NCBI GenBank assembly: GCA_026874595.1
Contig: CM049308.1
Location: 51,967,624-52,031,623 of the forward strand
From: Sipunculus nudus
Taxonomy: Eukaryota > Annelida > Sipuncula > Golfingiida > Sipunculidae
Direction of reading: 5' to 3'
Length of the DNA stretch: 64,000 nt
Positions 2,881-64,000 of this stretch are shown in pieces. The notes under the pieces were generated by a model. It saw nothing but the letters and a program-made list of their open reading frames with translations, was not told the DNA's origin and made no database searches. The stretch's first letter is position 1; each line of letters starts with the position of its first letter. The translations under genes and the position numbers were made by a program.

Positions 2881-5720
2881 TCACAAAAGTAGAGAATAAA
2901 AATCGTAAAAAATAATTAAAATATAGGTGGCGCCACCAATCTCCAGAAATTGATGAAACACTCCATGAACAATATCCATGCAAAGAATCATGGTGATTAA
3001 TGCATTAGTTCAGATACTTGAGCTTTTGTATTAAATTTTGCATTATTCTGGGGGGTACTTCAGAACCCCATAGCTCGAAGAATATAGGTCACAGTGACCT
3101 AATTTCAGGTTTACAAGGAGAATTTCCATAGACCTCCCAGGATTTAAAGTAAGAAGATTCCCGGTCTAGCGGTTACGATTTGTGCCCTGTTAACAGACAG
3201 ACGCCTGGATGGCCAGACGGATGACGGACAAAAGGTGATCCCTACAGCTCAGATGACTTTCAGTCAACTGAGCTAAAAATTGAAAAAATACAGGTGGCGC
3301 CACCAGAATGCAGAAACTGATGAAACATTTCATGATCAATATCCATGCAAAGAATCATAGTGATCAATATAATAATTGTTCAGATACTTAGCTTTTGTAT
3401 CAAATTTTCCATTATTCTGGGGGGTACTTCGGAGCCCCATAGCTCAGAGGTTATGGGTAACAGAGACCTAATTTCAAGTTTTTAAGGAAACTTTTCATGG
3501 GCCTCTCAGCATGTCAAGAGAGAAGATTCTAGGTCCAGTTGTTACGATTTGTGCCTAGTTTACCGATGACCGCATCTTATTAGGTCTCAAAAATAGAGAA
3601 AAAAATTAGTAAAAATAAAAAAAATACAGGTGGCGCCACCATAGTGCAGAAACTGATGACACATTCCATGATCAATATCCATGCAAAGAATCATGGTGAT
3701 CACTGCAATAGTTGTTTAGATACTTGAGCTTTTGTATCAAATTGTCCATTATTCTGAGGGATACTTCAGATGACTTACAGTCAGCTGAGCTAAAAACACT
3801 TAATGTTCAATATCCATGCAAAGAATCATGATGATCTCCGTATTAGTTCAGATTCTTCAGCTTTTGTATCAAATTGTCCATTATTCTGAGGGATACTTCA
3901 GAGTCCTATAGCTTGAAGGATATGGGTAACAGAGACCTAATTTCAAGTTTCCACAGGCACTCTTCATGGGCCTCCATGCATGACAAGAATGAAGTTTCTA
4001 GGTCCAGTTGTTGCAATTTGTACCCTCTTGATAGATAACATAGGTGGCGCCACCAGTCTGCAGGAACTGATGGAACATCTCATAATCAATATGTATGCCA
4101 AAAATCATGACCATCAGTGATGTAGTCATTGAGATATTGAAGTTTTTGTATGAAATTTTTGACTACTCTGGGGGGGTACTTTGGGGCCCCATAGCTCGAA
4201 GGATATGGGTAACAGAGACCTAATTTCTGGTTTCCATGGAGACTTTTCATAGGTCTTCTAGTGTGTTGAGAATGAAGATTCTAGGTCCAGTCGTTACTAT
4301 TTGTGCCATGCTAACAGATGACAGCATCCTTAAAGGTCTCAAAAATAGAGGAAAAAATCGTAAAACATCTAACGATACAGGTGGCGCCACCAGTCTGCAG
4401 GAACAGATGACACATCTCATGATCAATAGTTATGCCACAAATCATGACCATCATTCAAGTAGTTAATGAGATATTGAAGTTTTTCATAAATTTTTTACTT
4501 TTCTTGGGGGTACTTTAGGGCTCCATAGCTCGAAGAATATGGGTAACAGAGACCTAATTTTGATTTCCATGGAGACTTTTCATAGGTCTCTCAGTGTGTC
4601 GAGAATGAAGATTCTAGGTCCAGTCGTTATGATTTGTGCCACGTTAACAGATGACAGCATCCTTAAAGGTCTCAAAAATAGAGGAAAAAATCGTAAAAAA
4701 TCAAACAATACAGGTGGCGCCACAAGTCTGCAGGAACTGATGGAACATTTCATAATCAATATGTATGCCAAAAATCATGACCATCAGTGATGTTGTTATT
4801 GAGATATTGAAGTTTTTGTATGAAATTTTTGACTACTCTGGGGGGGGGGGGTACTTTGGGGCCCCATAGCTCAAAGGATATGGTTAACAGAGACCTAATT
4901 TCTGGTTCCCAAGGATATTTTTCATAGACCTCTCAGTGTGTCAAGAATGAAGATTCTAGGTCCAGTCGTTACGATTTGTGCTATGCTAACAGATGACAGC
5001 ATCCTTAAAGGTCTCAAAAATAGAGGAAAAATCGTAAAAAATCGAACAATAAAGGTGGCACCACAAGTCTGCAGGAAGTGATGACACATCTCATGATCAA
5101 TAGTTATGCCACAAATCATGACCATCAATCAAGTAGTTAATGAGATATTGAAGTTTTTGTATGAAATTTTTTACTTTTCTTGGGGGTACTTTGGGGCTCC
5201 ATAGCTCAAAGAATATGGGTAACAGAGACCTAATTTCTGGTTTCCATGGAGACTTTTCATAGGTCTCTCAGTGTGTCAAGAATGAAGATTCAAGGTCCAG
5301 TCTTCACGATTTGTGCCTTGTTAACAGATGTTTACATTTTGAAAGGTCTCAAAAATAGAGAAAAAAATTCGTAAAAAATTGAACGATACAGGTGGCGCCA
5401 CCAGTCTGCAGGAACTGATAGAACATCTCATGATCAATATGTATGACAAAAATCATGACCATCAGTCAAGTATTTAATGAGATATTGAAATTTTTGTTTG
5501 AAATTTTTTACTTTTCTGGGGGGTAGTTTGGGGCCCCATAGCTGGAAGGATATGGGTAACAGAGACCTAATTTCTGGTTTCCATGGAGACTTTTCATAGG
5601 TCTCTCAGTGTGTCGAGAATGAAGATTCTAAGCCAGTCATTACGATTTGTGCCTTGTTAACAGTTGTTCACATTTTTAAAGGTCTCAAAAATAGAGAAAA
5701 AAAATTAGGATGTCAAGTAA
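2881..5720 (+). repeat. Core array of ~335-bp tandem repeats with palindrome GGTGGCGCCACC
   Basis: About eight units are marked by a 12-bp palindrome at 2926, 3293, 3629, 4043, 4380, 4713, 5054 and 5391; spacings are 367, 336, 414, 337, 333, 341 and 337. Five of the eight palindromes (2926, 3293, 3629, 4043 and 4380), plus 5391, are perfect; those at 4713 and 5054 have drifted. Each unit also carries a CAGTCTGCAGGAACTGAT-like block, a (C/G)GGGGTACTTTGGGGC block, and ATGGGTAACAGAGACCTAAT. Short open frames here (4236-4466, 4539-4790 and their antisense) follow the repeat and are not genes. The long spacings at 2926-3293 and 3629-4043 coincide with extra pieces described separately. Confidence 0.9.
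3186..3285 (+). repeat. Internal copy of the element's right end inside the array
   Basis: A short microsatellite-like stretch (cagacagacgcc...gacgg) is followed by GTGATCCCTACAGCTCAGATG and the hairpin ending in CAACTGAGCTAAAAA, which is the right terminus of the family. It runs directly into the next core unit at 3286. A second, shorter internal end is at 3766-3800 (CAGATGACTTACAG, then CAGCTGAGCTAAAAAC). These suggest that the array is a composite of more than one element copy. Confidence 0.7.
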
Positions 5721-7887: not shown

Positions 7888-8218
7888 GTTGTTGTGGGTT
7901 CACCGCGGGTACGGATTTAGGCCGGGAACATCTCACCACTGCCCATATCGGCAATTTTGGCACAAGTGAATCATGTTGCGGGTTAATCGTTGGGACGAGT
8001 TGTTGTGGGTTAACCGCGGGGACGAATTTAGACCGGGAACATCTCACCACTGCCCATATCGGCAATTTTGGCACAAGTGAATCATGTTGCGGGTTAATCG
8101 TTGGGACGAGTTGTTGTGGGTTAACCGCGGGGACGAATTTAGACCGGGAACATCTCACCACTGCCCATATCGGCAATTTTGGCACAAGTGAATCATGTTG
8201 CGCGTTATTCGTTGGGAC
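7888..8218 (+). repeat. 111-bp tandem repeat, three copies
   Basis: The anchor GTTGTGGGTT occurs at 7891, 8002 and 8113, a period of exactly 111. The three copies are nearly identical apart from the first ~30 bases of copy one. Because 111 is divisible by three, a repetitive 131-codon frame stays open on the minus strand (7868-8263). It is low-complexity in its origin and has no recognised domain, so I do not call it a gene. Confidence 0.9.
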
Positions 8219-8364
8219 GATTTTGGACGCGGAACATCTCACCCCTCGCCACATTTGTGTCACTGCATTTCAAACGCGCACGCCATGTCAGTGCTTACTC
8301 ATAATTTAAGAAAAGTGTGGATGCAGGTACTGATATGGGTATATTCTAGTAAAAATAACCTGTG

Positions 8365-33099: not shown

Positions 33100-33108
33100 T
33101 AAAGCTGC

Positions 33109-33298
33109 GTGTCCACTTATGCGGCACGGATACGGATGGGGATGCGGACGCGTTTTTAATCGCGCATATGGAATAATGGAGTGTGTCCACTTATGCGGTG
33201 CGGAGTGCGTGCGACGTGCGGAAACGTATACGTTTTTTGAAAACCGGACAATGTAGCCACGGGTACGGAAACGTATGCGGAAACGCACAAGTGGACAC
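33109..33298. promoter_or_regulatory. Subterminal GTGTCCACTT repeats (probable transposase sites)
   Basis: There are three copies in the left end (33109-33118, 33183-33192, inverted 33289-33298) and one in the right terminal repeat (36894-36903). Clustered subterminal repeats are typical binding sites for Harbinger proteins; the binding itself is an inference. The CpG-rich GCGG/ACGG context is shared by both ends. Confidence 0.6.
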
Positions 33299-33412: not shown

Positions 33413-36055
33413 ATGCCCAGACTGGACAAAGAAGTTTCTGAAAAGTTGATCGAACAAGTGCGCGACCACAGATGTCTGTAGGATCCGATCAGCGCCGAGT
33501 ACAAGGACGCTCAGCTAGTTTTCAACGTATGGAATAGCATAGCAAAGGCTATGAGGGATCCTGCTGTGGCTGGTGAGTGACTGTTTCTGGATGTAAAATT
33601 AATGACAAGACTTTTCGCTCTGTTAAACATGTGTAGTTTGTAAAAAAATCTTTTGTTTTCAAGACATGAGCTCAGAGTGAGATATCATCATTAATGATTG
33701 TGTATTTACTACAGCAGTGAATAAAAATGACAGAATTTATTAAATACTCAGTTAAATTAGATTAAGACTTGGTGATTGATTATTTTATACAAGATTAGGT
33801 CTAAACTGAAGTTGTAGGAGAACTACAATATTAAACAAATTGTCGCTACATGTTATTCACGTGTTATATTGCTTGCAGGTCTGGACTGGAAGAAGAAATG
33901 GCGCAATTTACGAGACATTTACATGACAAAGAGAAAACAGGTTAGAACAACCAAATGTGGACAAAGTGCCCGAAGAGCAAGGAAGTGGATATATTTTGAC
34001 AGCATGTGTTTCCTCGACCAATACACAGAAGAACAATGGTAATTAGACTTAACATTTAATGCATGAATATTTCAAATATGTCAAACTCTTACTCTATATT
34101 TTGAAATATTTATGATTGGCTCGTCTGGCTTTTCCACACTGTTCTATGACTTTTTTTTTAAATACTGTTCCAGCACTGAAACTATTGTCCCGCAGGACGA
34201 AACAGAGAGTGAAGAAGAAACTGGTCTCGAGGGCTCATAGGATGAACCTTATATGTCATAAAGGTTTGAACAAATTAATATAAATTACATTATTTGAAGA
34301 AAACATTTGTAGGGTTCTGTTATTTAAATAAAAATCCAGTTTAAAAGTTAAAAAAGACAGACTTAACGCGTGTTAGCTCATAAAACATATCAAAATTTAG
34401 TTTTCAAACTGTCCCCTACGAACATGTCTTTCATGCCTGGATGCAGGTGCTACATCATTGAAGTATTCCTTGAAAATTGCTCTGATTTGCTGTGCATTCT
34501 GTGCTCCTCCATAACCAACGCCGGGAAATCTGCGAAGCCCCTGAGTTGGTTCTGCTCCTGCATGTTGTAGCAATGAGGATATCTGAGAAGGCGTTGATTG
34601 CGATTGAAGAAAATTATGCAGCACACAAGTTGCCTTCACTACGTCATTTGCGACCCCAGTTCCAACTGCAAGTTTTGTGTGAAACACTCTCCACCGAACA
34701 GCCAGAACACCGAACGCGTTTTCTACGATCCTTCTTGCCCCGGACAGCCTGTAATTGAATACTTGCTCATCATAGGGACATCCCCTTCCAGGGTATGGTC
34801 TCATGATATGGCGCTGTAAGGGGAAGGCCTCATCCCCTATAACCACACAAGGAACTCATCATCGGGAAAGTTTAACTTTTCCGTTACTATGGCTTTTCCG
34901 AGATTTGAATTTCCGAATATGCCCCCGTCGCTGTTCCGACCGTAAGACCCAACATCAATCGCAATAAATTTCAAATCTGCGTCCACCAGTGCCATGAGGA
35001 CTATTGAGAATGTTCCCTTATAATTAAAATACTGGGACCCTGTGTTGTTTGGGCACTTTATGACCACATGCTTCCCATCAAGAGCAGCTAAGCAGTGAGG
35101 AAACTGCCATTTATCTTTAAAATTTGCGGCTATCGATTTCCATTCTTCTGTTGTTGTTGGTAATTTCATGTAGATGGGTACTAATGTTTGCCACAAAAGC
35201 TGACACACTTCTCGCACAATATTGCTTACGGTCTTCACTCCCAGCTGGTAGGCAAAGGCTAGAGAATGGAAGGACTCCTCTGTGGCCAAGAACCTGTATA
35301 AGTAATACAGGAGCATATTAATGAAAATAACTTAAAATTATATAATTACATAATCGCAATTAAAACAGTGGTTAGATAGTGGCAAAGTAAATTTTCTATG
35401 GGTATTTCAAGTATATAGGATTCAAAGGTTTGCTTGTAAGGTTGTATGTGTCACTGTATATTTTACCTAATTTATTTTAAAACATTCTTAAATTTTCAGA
35501 TCAATGACACCGTCTGTTGTGCAGCAATCTTCCTCAGTCAGTGATTTGCCTTCATTTGTGGATATGCAAGGGCCCTCAAAAACAACAAAAGCACATAAGA
35601 GGAAAGCAAACTCAAAGGAATCTTCAGATTCAACAAGCTCCATGGAGAGAGCTCTGGCCGATCTAATCGTGCAGCACAGGAACGTCGCAGGGAAGATGCT
35701 TGAAGGTGTTGATGTAACAAGGATCAAGTCAGCCGAAGAACTGTATTTTGAAAGCGCTGCTCAGCGTATGGACCGATTGCCAGAAAAGACAAAGTCAGAT
35801 TTGATGTTCCAAATCTCCTCCTTATTATTTAATGCAGAGAACACTGATATTGCCCCAATGCCTGTCCCCCCTTTACCTACACCAAACTCCCCAGTTTCTT
35901 CGTTTTCTTCAGCACCAGGACCATCAGTGGAACCGCCTCAATGGACCTGCCCCACACCTGCTACGGATCGTGTACACAGTACACACAGCATGGACTTTGG
36001 CAGAGAAACGTCCATCATTGCACAAGCTATGAATTTGGCCAGTAATATGTCGTAA
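33413..36055 (+). pseudogene. MADF-BESS accessory DNA-binding protein of the Harbinger element
   Basis: There are four exons. Exon 1 (33413-33572) starts MPRLDKEVSEKLIEQVRDHR and carries a TAG at 33479-33481, where MADF proteins usually have Tyr, before DPISAEYKD. Exon 2 (33879-34038) reads GLDWKKKWRNLRDIYMTKRK and ends FDSMCFLDQYTEEQ, the second half of the MADF trihelix fold. Exon 3 (34174 to a TAG at 34238-34240, perhaps continuing to ~34255) is acidic. Exon 4 (35500-36055) follows a good acceptor and holds a basic KAHKRKAN stretch and a BESS-like motif (DRLPEKTKSDLMFQISSLLF) before a Pro/Ser-rich tail. The splice signals for exons 1-2 are GT/AG consensus. MADF proteins bind DNA; BESS motifs mediate protein contacts. 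AATAAA at about 34326 could end a short form after exon 3. Confidence 0.8.
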
Positions 36056-36816
36056 TATCTGGACATTTGGAACATCATTTATGATGCCTTTTGGAGTACA
36101 CCGTAATTAAATTATTGTTATTACGTTTTCTTAAATTAAAACTAGAGTATCCCATAAGTGTATAAATTATTAGTTGATACATTTGGGGTTTTGAATGTTA
36201 TTATACTGATAATAGGTTGTAATATATTATTTTGGGATTTGGATAACAGTGTAATTAAATTATTGTAATTATTTTTTTTAAATAGTTGATACATTTGGCG
36301 TTTTGAATGTTAATTTACTGTCAATAGGTTGTTATATATCATTTAAGGAGCTAAAACTGTTAACTGAGATTTGGACAGTTTAAAAACCACATACACAAGC
36401 TTGGACAAAGAGTGTTTTGCTTTATTATGTTTTATTTTTTGTAATATCCGGTATTATACCGCTGGGTTTTTTTAATAAATAAAGACGTACCTCAAGCACA
36501 CAGCTAATCTTTGTCTTGGGCAGATAACTTTTCTAAATCGAGAGTACTTCACCAAGTGTTCCTCGACCATTGACAGGACAAAACCAAACTGCTCTCTGTC
36601 CAGTCTCATGTACTGTTGGAATCTCTCTAAATCAGATTCCAGCTCCTGTATCAGATGGTATGCCCCTTGTTCATATCTCCTCTTATTGATAGCGTGCACC
36701 CACCAACGGTGTTTTCTTTTGTTCCTTTTTTTTGTTTTCACTACTATATACGCCCCTGTAATTATGATAAGCTGTTCCTGATGGTGAAGAAGCTGTGAGG
36801 ATGTGCTGAGTGGCAT
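34397..36816 (-). pseudogene. Harbinger DDE transposase (HARBI1-like)
   Basis: Exon 1 is 36816-36491 (start MPLSTSSQLLHHQEQ; then RWWVHAINKRRYEQGAYHLI and FRKVICPRQRLAVCL, the classic N-terminal region). Its donor is GAG|GTACGTC. Exon 2 is 35293-34397 after acceptor TTACTTATACAG. The joined codons give the family's CLRFLAT. Exon 2 has the helix-turn-helix (LGVKTVSNIVREVCQLL), block 1 AALDGKHVVIKCP (D), block 2 GSYGRNSDGGIF (D) and block 3 RRIVENAFGVLAVRWRVF (E). All three catalytic acids are kept. A two-base (TG) duplication near 34845 shifts the frame between blocks 2 and 3. Total length would be about 400 residues, normal for the family. The enzyme cuts and joins DNA at the terminal repeats in the nucleus. 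Confidence 0.93.
36056..36470. other. AT-rich spacer, intron of the transposase gene and 3' UTR of the MADF gene
   Basis: Contains a direct repeat: TTGATACATTTGGGGTTTTG near 36175 and TTGATACATTTGGCGTTTTG near 36286, each followed by similar AT-rich DNA and each preceded by GTGTAATTAAATTATTGT-like blocks. No coding sequence. Confidence 0.7.
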
Positions 36817-37032
36817 TATGGAGAAGCGAAAGAACGAAAAACGCACCAATGGACGCACACAAAAACGCATCCGTATCCGCAACGCATCCGTACAAGTGGA
36901 CACGCGGCTTAACTCCTCATCAAAGAACATGTGTTCATATTCTTTCAGCTTATGTTAAGTCTCTTTGACTTAGTCACCTACCTGGCTGACAGTGTAACGG
37001 ATCCATCCTTTCCTACCTGTTGATTGGAATGC

Positions 37033-37082: not shown

Positions 37083-38449
37083 GGAAGCAGAATTCAGCGG
37101 TACCTTTCACGTGACTTTATTCAATAATTCACTATCATTTCTAGTTTTTTAATCATTTGTAATCGATTGAGATGGTTCACTTAATAAGAGGCTTTACAGA
37201 GGTCCATAAGTTTTTCTGAGCCCTGTTGGTTCGCGGAAGTCTTGAATTTTAGTTTATAGTTAATTTGAATCGATAAGCGAAATGAATACATTCAAAGGTT
37301 TTCCACAATATCTTTTATATTTGGAAACATTTTGTATTGCTTAAAAATTGCAGATAAAACAGCTTCATCTCAATCCTTGTATAAGCAACAACACAGGGGA
37401 AATCAGCACTAAATAATGAATATAAAACACAGAATTATACACTAAAGAAGGTATGTTAAAAGTGACTACATGGACGCTTTTGTATAAGCATTATTCATGT
37501 AAAATGAGATGTACAATAACATTCAAAATATAACAACATTCAAAATATAACATTCAAAATATAAAAAAAAAATATGAGACCTTTTAATTATCCATATATT
37601 CTACTTGCACAAATACAGACATGACCCGTTCCCTAGTGTGACTGCAAATATACCTGCATGAATATTCCCTGATGATGGAATTCCTGTGGGCTGGGTTCTA
37701 AATACGCTCCATTAGCAGCGGCTACGCTACGCTCAACTAATAATTGCTACACTACCCGCTGCATTAAACCGCGGTTGCCGGTCAGGTTTGGCCACCAGGC
37801 GACGCTGTTTCTGTGGAATTCCCCCTGCGTTATACTTGACCAAACACATTACACGTTATCATCAGCACAAACAGATGTTCTTCGAGGCACCGGTCACTTT
37901 ACACTGCTGTGGAAAGCGCTTGGTAGCACAGATTATTTTCGTCCCCATTGGAATACACATGATGCAATCGCCAGCTTTCAACACAGTCTGTATACGGACT
38001 TGCTTGAGGTCCGTTATCCCCCACTGTCTGCTGCTTCCTGCATTTCGTGCCGCAAGAGCTATCCCCGCAAAGCTATGTTTGTTTACACGCGCCTTAAGAC
38101 AATCAGATTTCTTATCAGTTCTGCAATTTTTTTATTAAACGCAGAGCCAATCAGATTTTATTTTATCCAGCGCAAACTGACCGGGTGTTGCCAAACCAGA
38201 AAAATCCTGCTAATTCTCACAGCGTGTGAGTGGAAGGTCACTGGGCCGGGAGGTCACGCACTGTGTTCAGAGTGTAGGTTCGAAACAAAGGAACCTTTCC
38301 TTGGACTGGCTGAAACCCGTGTCATCTCAGCCTCTAACATGCGCTCATCGGACACTTGATCCCCGTGACAGGGAATACAATTTGGTTATCCTGTCTTTTC
38401 ATATCCACGTCAGCGAACTAACTGGTTGAGATGTTCCGTGGTGTCACGG
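37080..38449. other. No gene; CpG-richer repeat-like segment from 37690
   Basis: 37520-37565 has three copies of ACATTCAAAATATAA. 37690-38430 is richer in G+C and has two overlapping frames (194 and 116 codons at 37775 and 37788) that have no recognised domain. 38185-38270 is the second copy of the ~90-bp repeat at 9565-9655. I think the segment is an interspersed repeat, and the long frames are not supported as genes. Confidence 0.5.
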
Positions 38450-62676: not shown

Positions 62677-64000
62677 ATAATCCATAGTTTGTGAAGAAAG
62701 AACCAATATTAATAAAGTTCTAAAGAAAATAAGATTTTGATATATTTTGATCACCTTGACCTTGACCTTTGACTTATTTGAATAATAAACATAGGACTTC
62801 CAGATATCAACACGATTTATGACAAGTGTATTTACAAAACGATTCCTGCAAAACTGTGGCCAGTAGAATGCTACATGTGAGACGAAAGAACCAGGAAGCA
62901 GGCGAAATTGAGGACAACTGACAAACAGACAACATACTGACAAACTGACCCAAGATTGTGAACAGATGACTTAATCATGTTATGGAGAAACCTCAGAGGA
63001 AGATAATAAGCTATAGTTTATGTAAATGAGGTTTATAGTTTTGGAGATATGGCCAAAAAATGATATGTTGTGCAAGTTTGAGTGCACCGCCCCCTAGCGG
63101 CCAATTCTGGAAAATGAAAAATCTGTTTCGAGATATTAGTGTAAGACATAAGATGTAATAGTTTTAAAAGGATTCTTTCAAAACTGTGGCCTGTAGAATG
63201 CTATATGTGAGACGCAAGAACCGGCAAGCAAGCGGATTTGAGGACAACTGAGAAACAGACGGACACACAGACAAAGTGACTCAAGATTGAGACCAAATGA
63301 ATACACCAGGTTTTTGGAAAGACCCAGAGGAAGAACATAAGCTATAGTTTATGTAAATGAGGTTTATAGTTTTGGAGATATGGCCAAAAAATGATATGTT
63401 GTGCAAGTTTGAGTGCACCGCCCCCTAGCGGCCAATTCTGGAAAATGAAAAATCTGTTTCGAGAAATTAGTGTAAGACATAAGATGTAATAGTTTTAAAA
63501 GGATTCTTTCAAAACTGGCCTGTAGAATGCTATATGTGAGACGCAAGAACCGGCAAGCAAGCGAATTTGAGGACAACTGAGAAACAGACGGACACACAGA
63601 CAAAGTGACTCAAGATTGAGACCAAATGAATACACCAGGTCTTTGAAAAGACCCAGAGGAAGAAAATAAGCTATAGTTTTTGTAATTGAGGCTTACAGTT
63701 TTGGAGATATGGCCAAAACATTGTATGTTTGGGAGGTTTGCATACAGCGCCCCCTAGCGGCCGCATTCAGAAAATGGAAAAACAATTTCGAGATAATAGA
63801 GTAGGACTTACCATATGTCAGTTTCAAAAAGATTCCAGCAAAACTGTGGCCTCCAGGGCAAGACTACTGAAATCTCGAAATATCTCGTTTGACGAGAAAT
63901 TATACAAGATATCACGAGACTTATAAAAGAATCTTGCAGTACTTGTTGAATGCTACCTGATGCAAAAAACTAGACCTCTCTAGCTGTAAAACTGCCAAAG
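62677..64000 (+). repeat. ~330-bp tandem array, four units, running off the window
   Basis: The anchor CATAG/TATAGTTT occurs at 62682, 63011, 63342 and 63671 (periods 329, 331 and 329). Units 2-4 share the segment CGCCCCCTAGCGGCC at 63088, 63419 and 63748, and most units end in a GACGGACACACAGACAAA-like part. The period is close to that of the array at 2881-5720, but the sequence is mostly different; the AGTTTTGGAGATATGGCC block is similar to the AGCTTTGGAGATATAGGCC block of the other core. Confidence 0.9.

Follow-up and report, generated by a model that had tools for sequence, protein, structure and literature searches.

A two-gene PIF/Harbinger element

The segment 33103-36909 of the 64-kb stretch of DNA that was analysed (the window) is a full-length PIF/Harbinger DNA transposon of 3,807 bp, most likely from an animal genome, the ends of which carry the following features:

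33100-33102: left target site duplication TAA, read from the sequence
33103-33157, plus strand: left terminal inverted repeat, imperfect, about 55 nt, from local alignment
33109 and 33183 on the plus strand, 33289 and 36894 on the minus strand: sites of the ten-base sequence GTGTCCACTT, three at the left end and one at the right end
36861-36909, minus strand: right terminal inverted repeat, imperfect, about 49 nt, from local alignment
36910-36912: right target site duplication TAA, read from the sequence

Local alignment of the two element ends yielded a score of 47; 200 shuffles gave no more than 28. The target site duplications (TSDs) of PIF/Harbinger elements take the form TWA, and the 3-bp TSD seen here, together with the terminal inverted repeats (TIRs), a DDE_Tnp_4 transposase and a MADF domain in the second gene (PF10545), assigns the element to this class and bears out the earlier note, which had read it as a Harbinger with a transposase and a MADF-like gene. 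The four sites of GTGTCCACTT are the only ones in the 64-kb window, all of them lying within the element ends, and may serve as binding sites of the MADF protein. Harbingers are described, in the available text of PMC9179366, PMC9710019 and PMC2836001, as requiring two proteins, of which the Myb-like one binds subterminally, and in the case of zebrafish Harbinger3_DR this protein recognises a 9-bp subterminal motif (PMC9710019, available text). A search of the 64-kb window recovered no second copy of the element and no MITE derivative.

The two genes are composed of the parts given below, the splice sites being ranked by a consensus score built on approximate vertebrate frequencies:

33413-33572, plus strand: MADF exon 1, with PF10545 extending across the exon 1-2 join; donor in the top 0.11%
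33879-34038, plus strand: MADF exon 2; acceptor in the top 1.7%, donor in the top 5.2%
34174-34241, plus strand: possible MADF exon 3, acidic and doubtful; acceptor in the top 21%, donors weak or beyond the stop
34397-35293, minus strand: transposase exon 2, with DDE_Tnp_4 in two frames, split near 34850
35294-36490, minus strand: transposase intron, GT-AG, 1,197 nt, from splice scores
35500-36055, plus strand: probable last MADF exon (exon 4), in the transposase intron, from the open frame, a G+C block and an acceptor; alternative starts at 35525, 35538 and 35542
36474-36483, plus strand: AATAAATAAA, candidate MADF poly(A) signal, 7 nt before the edge of transposase exon 1
36491-36816, minus strand: transposase exon 1, from its open frame; donor in the top 0.39%

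The two transposase exons that had been proposed on the minus strand (36816-36491 and 35293-34397) are upheld by their splice sites and by the DDE_Tnp_4 domain. The intron has the donor CTTGAG/gtacgt, ranked among the GT of both strands of the window, and the acceptor tatacag/GTTC, in the top 6.8% of AG in the window, and the exons flanking it join in phase. Sequence profile analysis of exon 2 recovered PF13359 (DDE_Tnp_4) twice, in different frames and both times above the curated cut-off (8.6e-12 and 3.3e-13), one frame covering domain positions 1-75 and the other 77-158; given this frame break the copy has probably been inactivated. No Pfam family was recovered above the cut-off for exon 1, which we take to encode the N-terminus of the transposase on the basis of a resemblance, besides the splice sites.

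When MADF exons 1 and 2 are joined, with an X at the internal stop, they match PF10545 over positions 1-84 of 84 (1.2e-16, above the cut-off), while PF13837 is hit at 6.5e-4, below its own cut-off; the open frame containing exon 2 (33818-34042) recovers PF10545 by itself (3.3e-07). Exon 1 contains an in-frame TAG at 33479-33481, which is codon 23, and because of this stop and the splitting of the transposase domain between two frames the copy is almost certainly inactive. Exon 3 has a G+C content of 0.50, with flanks of 0.28 and 0.24, and a TAG near its end (34238-34240), downstream of which an AATAAA is found at 34327 on the plus strand. This exon may end earlier, at 34186, 34208 or 34223, or may be skipped.

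Elsewhere in the window a LINE-type reverse transcriptase remnant occupies 881-1913 on the plus strand in two frames (RVT_1 at 8.6e-06, which misses the curated cut-off, and at 2.7e-07, which passes it), and a minus-strand open frame at 46718-47188 matches the SCAN domain (1.6e-07) and is probably a retrotransposon gag. A plus-strand open frame of 227 codons at 37676-38359 (G+C 0.48) has no Pfam match at E values up to 0.1. Tandem arrays are found at 4042-5703 (337-bp unit, 4.9 copies) and 62836-63852 (329-bp unit, 3.1 copies), and at 7888-8220 a 111-bp unit, of a length divisible by three, is present three times with 97% matches and with both strands open. Scans of the 64-kb window for tRNAs and, at the gathering score, for Rfam families gave no hit.

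The plus-strand block within the transposase intron

On the strand opposite to the transposase intron an open frame of 187 codons extends from 35492 to 36055 on the plus strand. The acceptor at 35500 ranks in the top 7.1%, and that at 35525 scores higher (8.7 versus 5.6). The longest frame in 1000 dinucleotide-shuffled versions of the transposase intron had 150 codons, short of 187, and when the 556 nt of exon 4 itself were shuffled 1 in 1000 stayed open for at least 184 codons. Five stop-to-stop frames of at least 180 codons are present in the 64-kb window; the three with at least 187 are this one, the LINE remnant and the unexplained frame at 37676-38359.

Base composition is the best independent evidence for exon 4. 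The G+C content of the inferred exons lies at 0.41-0.50 and that of the inferred introns and the presumed MADF 3' UTR at 0.24-0.30, and when the exon mask is shifted circularly, 0.15% of the shifts reach the exon-minus-intron difference of 0.185 (best 0.186). A two-state G+C segmentation, which was supplied with no boundaries but with two G+C levels picked after the exon and intron values were known, delineated G+C-rich blocks at 34409-35296, 35506-36042 and 36484-36911 at all three switching rates, their inner edges falling at most 13 nt from the proposed exon edges; the last of these blocks takes in the right element end besides transposase exon 1. At the fastest switching rate only, extra blocks appeared, one (33871-34019) close to MADF exon 2 and one (34118-34248) close to exon 3.

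Exon 4 shows no Pfam domain above the cut-off. Its frame has a codon-position score of 2.5, a value equalled or exceeded by 11.7% of 2837 random windows, each taken in its best frame, and it therefore does not stand out from the background; one of the minus-strand frames of this block scores higher (3.1). AlphaFold, run on the frame with no alignment as input, produced a low-confidence model (mean pLDDT 57, pTM 0.23) of insufficient quality for a fold search, its best part consisting of helices at residues 42-64, 75-88 and 92-111 with ten-residue means of up to 81. The possibility that exon 4 supplies the BESS domain of a MADF-BESS protein was considered, on a resemblance of its sequence, and dropped for want of support from Pfam: neither the whole exon nor two segments cut out of it matched the BESS motif at E values up to 10, although the filters of HMMER may hide a weak match. 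Two of the helices of the low-confidence model (75-88 and 92-111) lie in the C-terminal part that had been the BESS candidate.

A sequence search of the PDB with the C-terminal half of the transposase, an exon 4 segment and the MADF part returned nothing credible. Against viral contigs exon 4 gave 3 pattern matches, and the transposase halves gave 2, 63, 53 and 17 against genome contigs and viral contigs, none of them a confirmed relative. No match came from plasmids and phages when they were searched by tblastn with the C-terminal half of the transposase, nor from viral contigs when they were searched for the TIR pattern. As these collections comprise prokaryotes, phages, plasmids and viral contigs, the misses say little on the host.

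Candidate joins between the block and the MADF gene

The earlier note envisaged the two genes as interlocked, with MADF exon 3, ending at about 34240, spliced to 35500. The open frame and the G+C block lend fairly good support to one part of this, a plus-strand exon within the transposase intron, provided that 35492-36055 is coding. The proposed join does not stand in this copy: exon 3 runs into the TAG at 34238-34240, the in-phase GT sites for 35500 come after this stop and are weak (the best in the top 17.6%), and splicing exon 2 straight to 35500 creates a stop. Eight models of the MADF tail were checked for stops, and five of them are open, to 36052, through the following plus-strand joins:

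34038 (exon 2) to 35542
34208 (exon 3 end) to 35538
34223 (exon 3 end) to 35538
34186 (exon 3 end) to 35525
34196-34208 (a 13-nt exon) to 35525

All five preserve the interlock, with sites that are weak or unproven, and because in-frame joins come cheaply (about one third by chance) they constitute permissive evidence only. Enumeration of possible middle exons gave 798 combinations with at most one stop; among the 28 of the 798 that were listed, most of the best-scoring stop-free middle exons lie within transposase exon 2 and seem fortuitous, and the best one outside it is again the 13-nt exon 34196-34208 leading to 35525.

The block 35492-36055 is likely to be the last exon of the MADF gene, to judge from the sequence, and transposase exon 2 would lie within a MADF intron on the condition that the block is joined to exon 2 or 3. 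On the whole we consider it probable that the transposase and MADF genes are mutually interlocked, with the last coding exon of each placed in an intron of the other.

One alternative is that the MADF gene ends at exon 3 and that 35492-36055 is an independent gene or exon under its own promoter, nested in the ordinary way in the transposase intron; the transposase and MADF genes would then be tail-to-tail neighbours and not mutually interlocked. The in-frame TAG at 34238-34240 with the AATAAA close by at 34327 and the want of a good donor after exon 3 speak for such an early end, and the drop in G+C after exon 3 fits an intron no better than a 3' UTR. Yet the block begins at acceptor-like sites, both at 35500 and at the higher-scoring 35525, its first ATG is in a poor context (by inspection), and its reading frame can be reached in phase from exon 2 or from exon 3 cut short, albeit with the chance expectation of about one third. 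We regard a separate gene as unlikely. Still less likely, in our estimate, is that the block is noncoding, the frame being a product of chance or a relic, for instance part of an older insertion in the intron. The absence of a Pfam match, the weak codon-position signal and the existence in the window of one comparable unexplained frame (37676-38359) would agree with this; against it, the frame exceeds those of all 1000 intron shuffles, the G+C edges come close to the acceptor and to the stop codon, and no stretch similar to the block is present elsewhere in the window. The interlocked layout is the best reading of this copy, in which we infer the place of the block in the MADF mRNA, as well as transcription, splicing and function, from the sequence.

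These features can be compared with those of other systems, as described in the available portions of the papers cited. The element shares with the PIF/Harbinger elements of fish a 3-bp TSD and the combination of a DDE transposase with a Myb/SANT-type protein, and its TIRs of about 49-55 nt may be set beside the 25-50 bp usual in fish; the best-matching domain of the second protein here is, in distinction, MADF (PMC9179366). With the PIF transposase/MADF pairs of insects it has in common a DDE transposase beside a MADF gene, the direction of the two not always being the same, and the cockroach transposase gene BPLG2, like the transposase here, has two exons, separated in most of the species by an intron of roughly 900-1500 bp; unlike the element, the insect pairs are domesticated and devoid of TIRs, their genes lying next to each other at distances of 97 and 179 bp (PMC9710019). 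As in rice Ping/Pong, two separate proteins are encoded, both of which are needed in the case of Ping/Pong (PMC2836001, the available text of which describes neither the order of the genes nor their introns). Host nested genes and tail-to-tail antisense pairs likewise display an exon within another gene's intron and convergent transcription, but in the element the nesting would be mutual and confined to one mobile element (PMC3192792, PMC5701935). Interlocking of exons is not mentioned in the available text of PMC9179366, the main text of which uses the words 'opposite', 'orientation', 'convergent' and 'overlap' 0 times, nor is it reported for the insect pairs in the available text of PMC9710019. 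Among the literature matches listed, no title or opening of an abstract described interlocked exons in a Harbinger, which leaves room for a prior publication. What is seen here is likely to be an unusual, zipper-like exon layout in a known kind of transposon.

Predicted transcript overlap and the proposed linkage of the two genes

In the proposed organization a minus-strand transposase gene of two exons and a plus-strand MADF gene of three or four exons would run convergently, so that their precursors would span a common 2.5-2.8 kb. Splicing would strip off nearly all of the complementary sequence and would therefore leave two ordinary mRNAs. The MADF/Myb-like protein would then bind the element ends and recruit the transposase, as in other Harbingers. 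Most simply, the layout would represent compact packing, which could be tolerated because splicing separates the genes.

The expectation that complementary coding RNA would exceed 1 kb is correct only for one mRNA set against the unspliced intron of the other (897 + 556 coding nt) and fails for the spliced mRNAs. Across 12 models that vary exon 3 and the 3' ends the mature mRNAs overlap by 0-238 nt, chiefly between the transposase 3' UTR and MADF exons 2 and 3, and no coding exon of one gene overlaps a coding exon of the other; the precursors overlap by 2,461 or 2,781 nt in two models of the 3' ends. Use of the poly(A) signal at 36474-36483 would put the end of the MADF mRNA at the very edge of transposase exon 1. 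No canonical poly(A) signal occurs close after the transposase stop, the nearest being an ATTAAA at 34060-34055 and an AATAAA at 33741-33736. The presumed MADF 3' UTR also contains a 67-nt direct repeat (36171-36237 and 36283-36349, 87% alike).

As the finished mRNAs would share only these 0-238 nt, the inference of double-stranded RNA was overstated. Intronic RNA is nuclear and short-lived, which also weighs against the idea that the interlock is a self-limiting circuit, where paired precursors would give rise to nuclear double-stranded RNA and small RNAs that damp both genes. The length of the precursor overlap would favor such a circuit, which is compatible with compact packing, and mutual repression might come about through collision of polymerases or nuclear double-stranded RNA. 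The available text of PMC3192792 describes transcriptional interference caused by nested genes, and that of PMC5701935 attributes double-stranded RNA to tail-to-tail and fully overlapping transcripts, and not to two other classes, so that tail-to-tail antisense pairs can form it; the same source nonetheless finds limited evidence for genic double-stranded RNA, and we hold a circuit of this kind to be highly doubtful.

The evolutionary tie between the two genes is weaker than had been suggested. Interlocking hinders the exchange of whole genes by a single crossover. It does not prevent solo-gene derivatives, since a deletion within the transposase intron could drop MADF exon 4 and leave the transposase whole, and by inspection deletion of transposase exon 2 would spare the MADF exons. 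Solo-gene derivatives have been counted in sea kraits (PMC8437027, available text), and in fish Harbingers the trees of the transposase and its partner are globally congruent and recombination is rare (PMC9179366, available text). A bolder proposal, which we rate as quite unlikely, is that an active Harbinger family has kept the interlock: genes that could not be swapped by one crossover would form one compact block, convergent transcription would cap both as a form of dose control, and the congruent phylogenies in fish would be explained in part.

If the layout is unique to this copy, or if exon 4 lies outside the MADF mRNA, the locus is an ordinary degenerate transposon. If other copies are alike, they would offer a case of obligate partner genes naturally locked into each other's introns, and a shared layout would predict that the exchange of whole genes is rarer in interlocked Harbinger families than in those with genes side by side.
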